Assembly: GCA_031267015.1 (NCBI GenBank)
Contig: JAIRZW010000081.1
Span: 1-11,741, forward strand
Length of the DNA: 11,741 nucleotides
DNA from: Heliobacteriaceae bacterium
Lineage (GTDB): Bacteria; Cyanobacteriota; Vampirovibrionia; Gastranaerophilales; Gastranaerophilaceae
Direction of reading: 5' to 3'
Below, piece after piece: positions 424-4,743 of this stretch. The number at the start of each line of letters is the position of its first letter. The stretch's first letter is position 1. Position numbers and translations under genes: made by a program. The notes below the pieces were generated by a model, which saw only the letters and a list, made by a program, of their open reading frames with translations, ran no database searches and had not been told where the DNA came from.

Positions 424-1331
424 TGCAAAACGTCATTGCGAGCGACCATAGGGAGCGTGGCAATCCAGCAAAAATAGTTTTATTTCTGGATTGCTTCGTC
501 GCGCTGCTCCTCGCAATGACGTTTTGCGGCGCGGCATTTGCCGCAGAATACGTGCCGGATACAGACGCGCGGCTTGAATACAATCAGGGCGTGGATTTTT
601 ATAAACTCGGCCAGTATGACCGCGCAATGGCGGCGTTTCGTACAGCAATATCGCGTGATCCGAATTTCATTGACGCTTATTTTAACCTTGGCTCAATTTT
701 GGAATACTTGCAGCAGAACGACGCGGCTTTGGCCGTGTTTAAGCAGATTATCCTGCGCAAACCGGATGACTATGAATCGCTTTATAAGGCGGCGTCGCTG
801 AGTGCAAAACTCGGCCAGCCTGACAAGGCAAAAGAGTATCTGGCACTAATTCCGCCAAGCAGTGCAGTTTATTCAAAAGCCCAGGAACTGGCAGCCGGCC
901 AACTTTTGACTGACATGCAGACAATTAAAAAAGAGCAGATTTCAGCGGCTGCAAAAGAAGAAGGTTTTGACCGGAGCAATGCGGTTTATAATGACATTTT
1001 AAGCCCGACCGGAATTACGAGCGATATGCTTGGAAACCTTTATGTCGCAAGCTTTTCTGATAACACGATTTATAAGATTACCTCTGACGGCAAACGCGTG
1101 ATTTTTGCAAAAGACCCGAAAATCAGCGGCCCTATCGGTATGGTAAGCGACATGAACGGAAATATTTACGTTGCGAATTACAACAGCAATAGTGTTCTGA
1201 AAATAAGCCCTTCAGGCACAATATCAATGCTGGTTTCAAACCTTCAAAAGCCGTATGGTCTGCACATCAACGGAAGCCTGCTTTTCATTTCCTGCCAGGG
1301 CTCAAACTCGGTTCTTCGATATAAGTTGTAA
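423..1331 (+). CDS. Exported TPR and NHL-type repeat protein with repeat-derived signal peptide
   Basis: This is a 302-residue protein of unknown specific role, probably a periplasmic or outer-surface scaffold. Seen: a basic N-region (to about residue 17), a hydrophobic core (18-33) and an AFA-A cleavage-like site near residue 40. About three TPR helical pairs follow at 50-150, for example NQGVDFYKLGQYDRAMAAFR and AYFNLGSILEYLQQNDAALA. A charged linker spans about 160-190. Three NHL/SMP-30-like beta-blade repeats end the protein at about 194-302, each with P.G......GN.YVA....N.. K/R at 30-40 residue spacing. Only half a normal six-blade propeller is present, so it may pair with another molecule. 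The ATG overlaps the malQ stop and has AGAGGA at 408-413, 9 bases upstream. Codons 1-35 lie in a long palindromic repeat, so the signal peptide is largely repeat-encoded. The next in-frame ATG, at 516, would destroy the signal peptide. Confidence 0.85.
   Translation: MQNVIASDHRERGNPAKIVLFLDCFVALLLAMTFCGAAFAAEYVPDTDARLEYNQGVDFYKLGQYDRAMAAFRTAISRDPNFIDAYFNLGSILEYLQQNDAALAVFKQIILRKPDDYESLYKAASLSAKLGQPDKAKEYLALIPPSSAVYSKAQELAAGQLLTDMQTIKKEQISAAAKEEGFDRSNAVYNDILSPTGITSDMLGNLYVASFSDNTIYKITSDGKRVIFAKDPKISGPIGMVSDMNGNIYVANYNSNSVLKISPSGTISMLVSNLQKPYGLHINGSLLFISCQGSNSVLRYKL
425..527. repeat. Long palindromic element, CATTGCGAG family
   Basis: The outer arms are perfect 18-base inverted repeats, GCAAAACGTCATTGCGAG at 425-442 against 510-527. 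The inner arms pair GCAATCCAG (460-468) with CTGGATTGC (486-494), capped by AAATA/TATTT around GTTT. The arms resemble the CGTCATTGCGAG...GGATTGC dispersed repeat known from many unrelated bacteria, whose translated forms often read like DCFVALLLAMT, as here. The element sits immediately after the malQ stop and forms codons 1-35 of the following gene. The transcript could form a large hairpin covering the start of that gene. Confidence 0.88.
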
Positions 1332-2075: not shown

Positions 2076-2115
2076 CCCCCTCACCCCGGCCCTCTCCCAC
2101 TGGGGGGAGAGGGAG
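2076..2115 (+). repeat. Palindromic element, CCCCCTCACCCC family, intergenic copy
   Basis: The element begins CCCCCTCACCCC and contains a perfect 9-base stem, CCCTCTCCC (2090-2098) with GGGAGAGGG (2105-2113), around a 6-base loop. A second copy lies inside the glcF-like gene (2754-2794, opposite strand). It resembles a GC-rich dispersed repeat seen in many bacteria. It sits between convergent genes and could stop transcripts from both sides, but no T-tract follows, so a terminator role is only possible. The minus strand has four G-tracts of three or more. Confidence 0.8.
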
Positions 2116-2126
2116 AATTTCAAAAA

Positions 2127-2156
2127 CCAATTAGAGTGGATGACTATCCGTGGTAG
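2127..2156 (+). pseudogene. Relic of a pseudopilin 3' end
   Basis: Read on the plus strand, these bases give PIRVDDYPW followed by TAG, the C-terminal signature of both pseudopilins here (WEIKDDYPW and WEIRDDYPW). No pilin coding sequence precedes it: the bases upstream are the palindromic element. The same bases encode, on the other strand, the last residues (TDSHPL) and stop of the glcF-like protein. It is either the remains of a third pseudopilin or a local duplication of pseudopilin A's tail. Confidence 0.55.
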
Positions 2157-3084
2157 CGAGAAAATCAACAATATTCATAATTTTTGGCGCCTTGCGCCCG
2201 AACAACCCTTGGTGAAGCCCGAGAATACAGCCGGGGCAGGCGGTTAAAACTACGTCAGCGCCTGTGGCAAGAATATTTTCGGCTTTTTGCTTTGCGATTT
2301 CACGCGAAATTTTGTTATTTTTAAGCGCGAATTCCCCGCCAAACCCGCAGCACGCATCAAAATCCTTCATTTCAATGTATTCGGCATTCCTAAGCAGCGG
2401 CTTCAAAAAATCCGTGTTTTCCATGTGGCAAGGCTTGTGGAAAGTAACTTTTGGCAGCGCCCCCCTTGTTAAAGGGGGGGCAGGGGGGGATTCTAAATAT
2501 TCAGCAGCATTCACAGCATTAATGCCGCATTTTTTAAGCATGTGAGCGCAGCTTGCACAGTCGGTGATTACGAGCTTGTTGCCGGCAAGATTTTTATTGT
2601 GCTCAACGCATTTTCCAAACCGCTTCACATCCCCGGCCGAAAGATACGGAAACCCGCAGCATCCAAACCCCGGGTCTTCGGCCGCCGCAAGCTTTTTCAG
2701 CGGATGTTTGCGCAAAACCCTGTTAAAACAACCGCTAAAATAAAGCAGTTGCGCCCCCTCTTCCCTAAGTGGGAGAGGGGCAGGGGTGAGGGGGATTGAA
2801 AACTTAAAACATTCTGCCTTAGCCGCATACAAAATATCGCAAACATCAATCCCACTCGGGCAAAAATCAGTGCACTTGCCGCATTTAAGGCATTGGTCAA
2901 GATATTTTTCGATATTTTTGCCGAGCTTCAGTTCGCCTTTAAGAACCCCGTCGAGCATCACAAACTTCCCGCGGCTCACAGCGCAGTCGTTTCCGGTAAC
3001 TTTATAGACAGGGCAAACCGACTGACACAGTCCGCATTTCGAGCATTTTTGAATCTCACTTGCATAATCTTTGAGGCTTTTCAT
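2131..3084 (-). CDS. GlcF/LldE/HdrD-type iron-sulfur protein with two CCG domains
   Basis: This is a 317-residue electron-transfer protein of the heterodisulfide reductase D / glycolate oxidase iron-sulfur subunit group. Seen: two 4Fe-4S motifs, CSKCGLCQSVCP (14-25) and CLKCGKCTDFCP (65-76). Two cysteine-rich CCG domains follow: FSGC (116-119) with CCGFP (142-146), and KPCH (217-220) with CCGFGG (245-250), then CPGC (283-286). These domains usually bind a non-cubane cluster or a redox partner. No flavin dehydrogenase gene (glcD-like) adjoins it, so the substrate is unknown. Two palindromic elements are read in frame: residues 96-111, between the ferredoxin part and CCG domain 1, and residues 199-209, between the two CCG domains. 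Both fall in linkers and all cluster ligands are kept. The gene starts 20 bases after pseudopilin B, with no good ribosome site. Its last residues overlap a pilin relic on the other strand. Confidence 0.85.
   Translation of the reverse strand: MKSLKDYASEIQKCSKCGLCQSVCPVYKVTGNDCAVSRGKFVMLDGVLKGELKLGKNIEKYLDQCLKCGKCTDFCPSGIDVCDILYAAKAECFKFSIPLTPAPLPLREEGAQLLYFSGCFNRVLRKHPLKKLAAAEDPGFGCCGFPYLSAGDVKRFGKCVEHNKNLAGNKLVITDCASCAHMLKKCGINAVNAAEYLESPPAPPLTRGALPKVTFHKPCHMENTDFLKPLLRNAEYIEMKDFDACCGFGGEFALKNNKISREIAKQKAENILATGADVVLTACPGCILGLHQGLFGRKAPKIMNIVDFLATTDSHPL
2459..2490 (-). repeat. 32-base palindromic element, C7-TG-C7-TTTAAYAA-G6 family, copy 1 (inside glcF-like gene)
   Basis: On the minus strand: T, seven C, TG, seven C, TTTAACAA, six G, C. 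The stem pairs the C and G tracts around TTTAACAA. It is read in frame as SPPAPPLTRGA (residues 199-209). The copy at 4342-4373 matches at 31 of 32 positions. Confidence 0.9.
2754..2794 (-). repeat. Palindromic element, CCCCCTCACCCC family, copy inside glcF-like gene
   Basis: The minus strand begins CCCCCTCACCCC and shares the CTCTCCCACT core and the following G-rich arm with the copy at 2076-2115. It is read without a stop as PLTPAPLPLREEGA (residues 98-111). The plus strand holds four G-tracts of three to five Gs separated by 2-3 bases, a standard G-quadruplex pattern. Confidence 0.85.
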
Positions 3085-3104
3085 ATATTAATATTAGCAC
3101 AGAC

Positions 3105-3797
3105 CTACCAAGGGTAATCGTCCCTGATTTCCCAGCCGTCTAACATAATCAGCGCAGCGCACCAGTTACCATATTGTGTTTTGTTACAAGTTGAATATGG
3201 ATTATTAGCCATTAATTTATTTCTGTTGTATTCATTGCCAAAGCCTTCATTTTGATTCTCTACTCTTCCAAATCCAAATGGTGTTACTCCATATACAGGT
3301 TGAACAGACAATAAGAATAAGTCACGTCCCTGCATATTAGGTTTCTTAAACCCATTTACATCGACAATGATAACGGAACTCGAATCTGTAAAGTACAAAA
3401 TAGTACCATTTGCGAGCATTACACCGTAGCTGCTATTTTCACAAAAGCGCGCTCCAACAGCACAAACTCTTACTGAATTTAATGCCTTATAATCGACTAA
3501 TTGTTTATATTGAGAAGCTTTCAATTGCTTTACATTTTTCAAATAATCTTTAAAGTATCTTTCAAAAAAAATTTGTGCTCCCAGTGAATAATCCCAATCA
3601 TCTACCGAGCCGTTGTCCAATTCGGAAAACTTCACTGCCTGGCTCAATTCGGAATAAGCTTTTTTAAGCCGGACAGCAGCTTGTTTTTTCTCATATTTTA
3701 TAATCAGCGCCGGCATGGTCAAAGCAGCAACAACGCCGATAATACCGAGCGTAATCAAAACTTCTGCAAGAGTAAAGGCTGATTTTTTCTTATCCAT
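3105..3797 (-). CDS. Type II secretion / type IV pilin-like pseudopilin B
   Basis: This is a 230-residue paralogue of pseudopilin A. Seen: leader MDKKKSA, then FTLAEVLITL with Glu at +5 after the presumed prepilin peptidase cut, and one hydrophobic helix to about residue 33. The globular region has VDVNGFKKPN..GRDLF, a segment common in this pilin group, two Cys in VCAVGARFCEN, and a C-terminus with C...WCAALIMLDGWEIRDDYPW. A second in-frame ATG lies two codons upstream at 3803. I prefer 3797 because the promoter at 3806-3834 predicts transcription starting near 3799-3800, inside the upstream codons. No Shine-Dalgarno site precedes either ATG. It lies between the nagA-like and glcF-like genes in the same direction but has its own strong promoter, so it can be expressed independently of the cell-wall genes upstream. 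The glcF-like gene, 20 bases after it, may be cotranscribed. Confidence 0.87.
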   Translation of the reverse strand: MDKKKSAFTLAEVLITLGIIGVVAALTMPALIIKYEKKQAAVRLKKAYSELSQAVKFSELDNGSVDDWDYSLGAQIFFERYFKDYLKNVKQLKASQYKQLVDYKALNSVRVCAVGARFCENSSYGVMLANGTILYFTDSSSVIIVDVNGFKKPNMQGRDLFLLSVQPVYGVTPFGFGRVENQNEGFGNEYNRNKLMANNPYSTCNKTQYGNWCAALIMLDGWEIRDDYPW

Positions 3798-3805
3798 GCT
3801 CATAA

Positions 3806-3834
3806 ATTATAGTACGAATTTTAGAAATTGTCAA
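3806..3834 (-). promoter_or_regulatory. Perfect-consensus promoter of pseudopilin B
   Basis: On the minus strand: TTGACA (3834-3829), exactly 17 bases, TATAAT (3811-3806). Both hexamers and the spacing are perfect sigma-70-type consensus. The predicted transcript start at 3799-3800 lies 2-3 bases before ATG 3797, which would give an essentially leaderless mRNA. Confidence 0.85.
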
Positions 3835-3845
3835 CTCTTACAAAG

Positions 3846-3861
3846 TTTGTTACAATCGTTA
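3846..3861 (-). promoter_or_regulatory. Shared upstream motif of pseudopilin B promoter
   Basis: The minus strand reads TAACGATTGTAACAAA, identical to 1329-1344. Its first three bases are the stop codon of the nagA-like gene, and it ends 11 bases before the -35. Here it extends to an inverted repeat TTTGTTA-N7-TAACAAA, typical of a dimeric regulator's site. The role is inferred. Confidence 0.62.
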
Positions 3862-4743
3862 ACAAATCAAATTCCATTTTTCGTCCCACTCAATTTCTCC
3901 CGGGAGGCCAATTTTGTGGTAATTATAAGGATTTTCAATAAATTGCGGATTAAATAAGCCTTTCGCGTGCAGAGATTTAATTATCTCCGGCAAAAGCTGC
4001 ACACTGCCTGCAATAGTTCCGTCTTTTGAGCGCCCGTCAGCGTAAATTTTCTGTCCTGCAAACGTCATTTCTTCCATGCCGCTTCTGGTAATCGGCAAAG
4101 AATCACTAACAAGAATGATTTTGTCCGCCGGCTTGGACTTAAAAATCAATTTCAATGCGTCGTCGCACACATGAACCCCGTCGGCAATCACTTCCGTGTA
4201 AATCCCGTCATTAATCAGCGCGGACAAGGCAGTAGACGGCTGCCTGTGGGAGATTCCGGCCATTGCATTGAACATGTGCGTAACCCCGTCGCAAGCAGAC
4301 AAATCCGCACCAACACAGTGTCCGGCCTGAATCTTTAATTTGCCCCCCTTATTAAAGGGGGGGCAGGGGGGGAGTAACTCCGGCGCAAGCGTTACGATTT
4401 TTATAAAATCGTCTTCAACAAGCTTGAAATTCTGCGCTGTGAGCGGCAAAAAATATTTCTCGTCATGAATCCCTTTTTTTAGCGGGTTTAAGAAAATACC
4501 CTCCAGATGAATCCCTAAAATCCGCGCCATATCAGATGTTTGACGCTCTGCGGCTGTCTTGATAACTTTAATCTGCCGCTGAATATTCTCAACCGAATCT
4601 GTCGCAAGCGTTGGAAAAATCCCGCCAATCCCGTATTTACGGATTTCTTTTGCCGTATAAAGCACATCATCAACCGCCGCGGTATTGAAATCAACCCCGA
4701 AACACCCGTGGAAATGCTGTTCTATGAGCGGCCTGGTCTTCAT
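3859..4743 (-). CDS. nagA: NagA-like N-acetylglucosamine-6-phosphate deacetylase, shortened
   Basis: This is a 294-residue amidohydrolase barrel expected to remove the acetyl group from GlcNAc-6-phosphate, linking amino-sugar or peptidoglycan recycling to the neighbouring wall genes. Seen: HFHGCFGVDF (10-19), FPTLATDS (43-50), GIHLEG with metal-ligand Glu81, VTLAPE (117-122), AGH with His142, THMFNAM with His156, IADGVHV with His191, and SDS with Asp214, the usual catalytic Asp. The family is normally about 380 residues. The N-terminal strand domain before the first barrel motif is missing, and the C-terminus stops at the barrel. Between LAPE and AGH, where E. coli NagA has about 19 residues forming a helix, there are only 15, mostly encoded by a palindromic element (125-134). 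The start overlaps the murE stop by four bases (ATGA) and has AAGGA at 4752-4756. Activity may be altered by the missing pieces. Confidence 0.8.
   Translation of the reverse strand: MKTRPLIEQHFHGCFGVDFNTAAVDDVLYTAKEIRKYGIGGIFPTLATDSVENIQRQIKVIKTAAERQTSDMARILGIHLEGIFLNPLKKGIHDEKYFLPLTAQNFKLVEDDFIKIVTLAPELLPPCPPFNKGGKLKIQAGHCVGADLSACDGVTHMFNAMAGISHRQPSTALSALINDGIYTEVIADGVHVCDDALKLIFKSKPADKIILVSDSLPITRSGMEEMTFAGQKIYADGRSKDGTIAGSVQLLPEIIKSLHAKGLFNPQFIENPYNYHKIGLPGEIEWDEKWNLIC
4342..4373 (-). repeat. 32-base palindromic element, C7-TG-C7-TTTAAYAA-G6 family, copy 2 (inside nagA)
   Basis: Identical to 2459-2490 except for one base in the loop (TTTAATAA instead of TTTAACAA). Here it is read one base out of phase with the glcF-like copy, giving PPCPPFNKGG (residues 125-134). 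The third frame of this strand would meet TAA. Confidence 0.9.

Follow-up and report, generated by a model that had tools for sequence, protein, structure and literature searches.

Short repeats with a predicted triplex-motif layout lie within reading frames of a Heliobacteriaceae bacterium of the Gastranaerophilales

An 11,741-nt contig (JAIRZW010000081.1; hereafter the window, at its full length) from a Heliobacteriaceae bacterium (assembly GCA_031267015.1, Gastranaerophilales; 1,008,014 bases in 206 contigs, 57% complete; G000 below) holds two nearly identical 32-mers, one inside a glcF-like and the other inside a nagA-like gene. The explanation that best covers these and related copies is, taken as a whole, a probable one: they belong to a dispersed repeat with a triplex layout, which in this lineage is read as in-frame linker peptides. 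That the copying proceeds through errors of replication or repair, with no dedicated transposase, is a weaker and more tentative part of this proposal.

The two 32-mers (family A) are identical at 31 of 32 bases, and the matching ends abruptly at both edges. Their host reading frames differ, the glcF-like minus-strand gene reading ...EYLESPPAPPLTRGALPK... and the nagA-like minus-strand gene ...APELLPPCPPFNKGGKLK... across the element. No third copy was found in the window at up to 3 mismatches, and none of 200 dinucleotide shuffles of the window contained two copies. A preliminary description of the sequence had given the coordinates, the 31/32 identity and the two peptides in two frames, all of which were correct on re-reading. 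Of what it termed a "32-base palindrome", only about 23–25 bases are palindromic, and a G-run is left outside. The plus-strand copies read CCCCCCTT, a 4-nt loop, AAGGGGGG, a 3-nt loop and GGGGGGGA, so that the layout is that of a hairpin followed by a third G-rich strand, which is a near mirror image of the G strand. Copy 1 consists of an 8-nt C stem, a 4-nt loop, an 8-nt G stem, a 3-nt loop and an 8-nt third strand, with one mismatched triad.

Triplex motifs were sought with our own script, written for the purine-motif class after the ITxF criteria given in PMC4666352 (three stems of 6–15 nt, loops of 1–6 nt, at most one mismatched triad). The scan found exactly three motifs in the window, namely both 32-mers (stems 8, loops 4 and 3) and a further element between the genes at 2078–2113 (stems 9, loops 6 and 3), which reads CCCTCACCC NNN CCCTCTCCC loop GGGAGAGGG (Table 1). 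This last element represents a sister family, B, which resembles the published TM-ECO motif (CCCTCNCCC N3-6 GGGNGAGGG N3 GGGNGAGGG in PMC4666352) and is more abundant than A in G000. When single strands were folded and compared with shuffles, the A copies beat most of them (z −2.6 and −2.1), while the B copy of the window was unremarkable (z −0.7). Families A and B share a triplex-motif layout, and the triplex fold itself is predicted from the sequence pattern. For the E. coli motif, PMC4666352 describes triplex formation as shown in vitro and unsupported in vivo.

Table 1. Features of the window.
Feature	Position	Strand	Remarks
Family A triplex motif, copy 1	2459..2490	+	in glcF-like gene; minus-strand peptide SPPAPPLTRG
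Family A triplex motif, copy 2	4342..4373	+	in nagA-like gene; minus-strand peptide PPCPPFNKGG, other frame
Family B (TM-ECO pattern) triplex motif	2078..2113	-	between pilin-like ORF and glcF-like gene
Degenerate B-like copy	2754..2794	-	in glcF-like gene, peptide LTPAPLPLREEGA; found by eye, missed by triplex scan
glcF-like Fe-S protein gene	2131..3084	-	precomputed Pfam PF12838, PF13534, PF02754 and others
nagA-like protein gene	3859..4743	-	source of homologue P0004 calls that protein N-acetylglucosamine-6-phosphate deacetylase
Family C CGTC-tagged palindrome pair (REP-like dimer)	431..521	+	N-terminal, signal-peptide-like part of ORF 423-1331

Both families recur in the genome. A search of the whole assembly, as the preliminary description had proposed, matched the A core at 4 places with up to 3 mismatches and returned 12 degenerate A places and 45 B palindromes, which disposes of the objection that no further copies exist. 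Copies were counted in 207,640 bases (208 kb) of G000 chosen for carrying such motifs and including all 45 B palindromes, family A being counted only there. The triplex scan of these bases gave 46 motifs, as against 0 in one set of order-1 Markov versions, and the counts were 17 copies of family A and 38 of family B (head plus stem), after exclusion of 7 of the 45 B palindromes that had no recognised head.

Most of the copies lie inside open reading frames (ORFs, taken from stop to stop). At a main limit of 180 amino acids (aa) or more, 40 distinct ORFs together hold 14 of the 17 A copies and 31 of the 38 B copies in frame; with a looser limit of at least 100 aa, the numbers were 15/17 and 33/38. 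A start codon or an open end precedes the element in 44 of the 45 copies inside ORFs of at least 180 aa. None of the 10 copies outside such ORFs contains the end of an ORF of 90 aa or more, and the A copy at C134 lies in a 141-aa ORF at a contig end. Judged from their sequences, the hosts would be a ddl-like gene (D-Ala-D-Ala ligase) and genes for UvrD-like (one A, one B) and Mfd-like (two B) proteins, together with putative chorismate synthase-, TruB-, CoaBC-, IspG-, MurC-, FolP-, MiaB-, PrmC-, NAD synthase-, HemW-, UppP-, QueA-, glycogen synthase- and valyl-tRNA-synthetase-like proteins.

The elements are largely open to translation. Two of three frames had been described as free of stops on the strand in question; this holds for each strand of A, and therefore for 4 of 6 frames (copy 1 translated), and family B is open in 5 of 6. 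The B copies in ORFs use the sense frames 1, 8 and 7 times (16 in total) and the antisense frames 5 and 10 times (15 in total), with the closed frame used in 0 of 31, a zero that follows partly from the counting method. The length of the first loop is divisible by three in 28 of the 31 in-ORF B copies, compared with 20 of 49 B copies of relatives (p = 7e-6). Across the 38 B copies of G000 there are 17 distinct loop sequences, which argues against a single founder.

A further possibility is that the inserts are removed from the mRNA or bypassed by the ribosome, leaving the proteins unaffected. The better-than-shuffled folding of the A strands would suit it, with the window B copy again the exception, as would the location of the inserts within conserved enzymes. 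Bypass, however, requires neither a length divisible by three nor open frames, and the prevalence of such loops among the in-ORF copies makes this a very improbable account. Selection of the peptide itself, as a useful proline- and glycine-rich linker, is scarcely more credible. P, G, S and charged residues are indeed abundant in many of the peptides, which sit between conserved blocks, but B yields five unrelated peptides and A several, the hosts are unrelated genes, and in the closest glcF homologue another peptide occupies the site. Least probable of all is an artefact of assembly or binning: the assembly is fragmented and incomplete, as stated above, yet an artefact would not preserve the frame in 40 ORFs, and other genomes also have homologues, such as L056 and L061, with repeat-like peptides in frame.

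The share of copies inside ORFs (45/55 or 48/55) was compared with simple expectations, using a coding density of 0.88 from our own ORF estimate on the 208 kb. A unit of 3n nt would give 0.85, insertion without selection 0.88, and insertion of random length followed by frameshift loss 0.65. The observed share exceeds the last value, which assumes perfect tolerance of open frames in a simple model, with p = 0.005 or 0.0002, and agrees equally well with the other two. A possible reading of these figures, though one we consider rather doubtful, is a frame-safe repeat, in which a unit of 3n nt (for B, 30 nt and a first loop of 3 or 6 nt), having five of its six frames open, spreads almost regardless of genes. 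The copies sampled in relative G125 all have 3-nt loops, yet 7 of 8 lie outside long ORFs, and a length of 3n alone therefore does not explain the gene habit.

Host proteins were compared with those of four relatives, two of the same genus (G001, G002) and two of the same family (G019, G023). The search covered 34 of the 45 regions around copies in ORFs of 180 aa or more; 29 of the 34 gave alignments and 27 a length comparison; those without an alignment were A at C202:707 and B at C129, C134, C36 and C46:931, mostly because no locus was fetched for the matches. The two sites of the window were handled apart from this set. The median of the 27 site medians was a net gain of 7 aa, and 22 of the 27 were above zero. 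Clear cases were Ddl (+14 or +15 aa), Mfd (+11), HemW (+13), QueA (+8 to +10) and PrmC (+6), and single pairs ranged from −18 to +24 aa, with the extremes in variable linkers. In this comparison with orthologues, of the kind suggested in the preliminary description, not one of 98 pairs showed an orthologue sharing half of the element's residues. Its view that the element enters genes without truncating them is supported by further copies in both orientations and several frames that are absent from the compared orthologues. As for its alternative of recent spread or constraint, spread is indicated for the two mfd B copies, both of which (+15, +11 aa) are missing from the 87% identical Mfd homologue P0243 of a close relative (a second homologue, P0293, is 73% identical), whereas constraint on one peptide does not agree with B being used in five frames.

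At the nagA-like site, the closest homologue (P0002, 81% identical) has a loop 5 aa shorter and no such peptide; P0003 is 72% identical, and P0004, P0062 and P0098 have other insertions at the A-site loop. By sequence alignment, the element appears to lie in a loop of the protein; a single-sequence structure model was uninformative (mean pLDDT 35). In P0004, the A site (VPRPLAPAPWGRG) and another loop (TPPPNPRPQGAGG) hold proline-rich stretches, perhaps from other repeat families. The closest glcF homologue, P0122, has the peptide NKETLKQVQGDR at the position of the A peptide, of a putatively repeat-derived type; a similar peptide occurs elsewhere in L061. The varied nagA and glcF sites among homologues thus look like tolerant sites altered more than once. 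Replacement of codons by an equal length as the rule was hinted at by a first alignment (nagA net 0, glcF +1), but pure replacement is ruled out by the short nagA loop in P0002, P0012 and P0039 and by the median gain of 7 aa. Partial replacement of codons is possible. Around the degenerate B-like copy, the linker of the glcF-like protein varies widely among relatives and seems to have been hit repeatedly; in this same linker, the glcF homologues L056 and L061 carry the repeat-like peptides VTLNLIQGLRRS...FRVKPGMTG and KMLNQVQHD.

Across the phylum, the strict B pattern matched 38 of 386 genomes and the A pattern 84 of 386, with 0 matches for the control pattern in each case; the maximum for A was 177 matches (G169). 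Relatives were sampled from listed places only, giving 49 B copies from six genomes and 20 A copies from six others. Only 3 of these 49 B copies are situated inside ORFs that reach 180 aa, compared with 31/38 in G000 (p = 1.4e-13), and the difference persists at 100 aa (12/49 against 33/38, p = 6e-9). For family A, the corresponding numbers were 5/20 and 14/17 (p = 8e-4); three of the five intragenic copies belong to G157, so intragenic A is not unique to this species. The triplex layout, the wide spread of A, the abundant B family and its mostly extragenic place in relatives all go beyond the preliminary description. A triplex scan of 321 kb of loci from the four relatives used for the protein comparison, fetched by protein homology, gave 1 motif in G001, outside a long ORF, and 0, 0 and 0 in the others. 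In G325, four B copies are arranged in tandem and repeat every 48 bases (L236, 1826–2003).

Outside the phylum, B-like stretches were found in 102 plasmid records, 77 of them from Azospirillum, Escherichia or Enterobacter, while BLAST gave no plasmid match for family A, where the low-complexity filter may hide matches. The exact A 27-mer occurred at 2 loci of a genome contig collection, both in Geomonas anaerohicana. One lies just beyond the end of a 912-aa ORF and is spanned by an opposite-strand 126-aa ORF, and the other falls outside the listed ORFs of at least 100 aa.

The B copy number is very uneven, with 44 matches in G079 and none in G008 and G068 of the same genus. Such a high number in a single species beside match-free sisters resembles transposition, and would suit non-autonomous transposons moved by a dedicated enzyme, be it a REP-associated tyrosine transposase (RAYT), an IS200-type or another transposase. 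We regard this as unlikely. The RAYT-type family PF01797 was found in 4 of 20 genomes searched, the B carriers G152, G125 and G176 and also G082, which has no B match, but was not found in G000, G079, G325, G130 or G259 in a search restricted to this transposase family. G079 and G325, the two most B-rich relatives, are 99% complete, and the RAYT put forward earlier as a candidate mobiliser is therefore not borne out. PMC4666352 also reports no transposase remnants near the E. coli copies, and more change around the copies than in controls.

The preferred explanation would run as follows. A dispersed repeat of triplex layout, in which a C stem, a loop and a G stem are followed by a short spacer and a second G strand, would have reached many sites, mostly in genes, where it would be translated as a linker peptide without a function of its own, and copies would be kept only where frame, stops and host protein allow. 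More tentatively, fork stalling at the folded strand, template switching or patch replacement may copy the element, without a dedicated transposase. A polymorphism at the E. coli ilvC-ppiC locus offers a comparison: MG1655 and FT130 carry 55 nt made up of the element and flanks of 13 and 9 nt, in place of which PSS-16, Combat11I9 and an O157:H7 strain show 14 nt of unrelated sequence. The alleles were read by eye from the alignment rows (the program misplaced the shared 5' part), and either state may be the older. A MITE would be marked by terminal inverted repeats and a target-site duplication; this one polymorphism reads as a swap of unrelated stretches more than as a duplication. Such exchange of patches could also account for gains in G000 proteins that often fall short of the element length. 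The E. coli frlR-yhfS locus was considered as an empty site and rejected, since strain 300444 has a partial deletion of the element there.

Several points weigh against this explanation. The A copy at C55 has no start codon before the element, for two B copies the ORF end is no more than 15 aa away, and the longest ORFs of C93 and C36 may differ from the real genes; moreover, a count of ORFs that run open across the element is biased by design towards open frames. The net gain often differs from the element length (27 site medians of −3.5 to +14), so that clean insertion is not established, and insertion was judged at the protein level. Finally, three B carriers do have PF01797, and since G000 is 57% complete, a mobilising enzyme could be missing from its assembly.

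Among known systems, the TM-ECO or PIT motif (Holder et al. 2015, PMC4666352) is the closest. Family B fits its pattern (L001, L031; 2078–2113), and the order of C stem, loop, G stem, 3-nt loop and third G strand is common to both, as are a copy number that is very uneven between relatives and the absence of a reported associated transposase. Family A has the same layout in other letters. The 23 E. coli K-12 copies are described as always intergenic, in contrast to the 31/38 B copies of G000 in ORFs, although the clear B copy of the window is itself intergenic. The pattern was catalogued there in 262 proteobacterial genomes, a group outside which G000 would fall. Rickettsia palindromic elements (RPEs; reviewed in PMC10969869) are likewise palindromic repeats in frame in many unrelated genes, but at about 150 bp, with a conserved peptide each, they differ from A and B, which have 32–36 nt, several frames and unrelated sequence. 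The earlier expectation of RPE-like behaviour with a different sequence was thus borne out.

GTAG/CGTC repetitive extragenic palindromes (REPs; Di Nocera et al. 2013, PMC3733652) are also short palindromes, some of them intragenic (UvrD/Rep helicase, uvrA, DNA ligase and others). Most, however, are intergenic, with GTAG REPs tied to RAYTs, whereas PF01797 was not found in the incomplete G000 or in G079 and G325. A and B have a third strand and no tag at a fixed place; a GTAG or CGTC tetranucleotide occurs within 22 nt of the stem pattern in 16 of 55 A and B copies, at no fixed place. Family C of the window, by contrast, fits the CGTC REP type by the features given in that article, with CGTC at its start and end. 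It recurs at L121 (C42) 967–1057 and 3143, L129 (C11) 6928 and L125 (C136) 3192–3327 and 5396, and of 19 family C ends, 11 fall inside ORFs of 180 aa or longer. Its palindromes are translated inside parts that look cleavable. Some of these parts resemble signal peptides (LDCFVALLLAMTFCGAAFA), and in at least three pilin-like ORFs the part concerned is the leader directly ahead of GFTLAEVLITLG. Two pilin-like ORFs on opposite strands flank the glcF-like gene of the window, and an inverted match of 196 bases (73%) joins 1410–1605 to 3594–3789. Rfam returned three weak matches on the window, all far under the gathering score.

In-frame palindromic inserts are already known from RPEs and some REPs; among the papers listed by our searches, none was seen to describe a triplex motif as a coding insert or its shift from spacers to genes between relatives. 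The way in which tiny palindromes spread without a known transposase, both inside a phylum and across phyla, has long been debated as an open question. Here, one bacterial family offers opposite genomic addresses for the same motif, ORFs in G000 and mostly spacers in G079, G325 and others, which makes a choice between insertion mechanism and purging testable. The results suggest that core enzymes of one lineage have repeatedly gained several residues, a way for proteins to change for which Rickettsia has been the main other example, and they carry the warning that such peptides in metagenome proteins may be repeat-derived.

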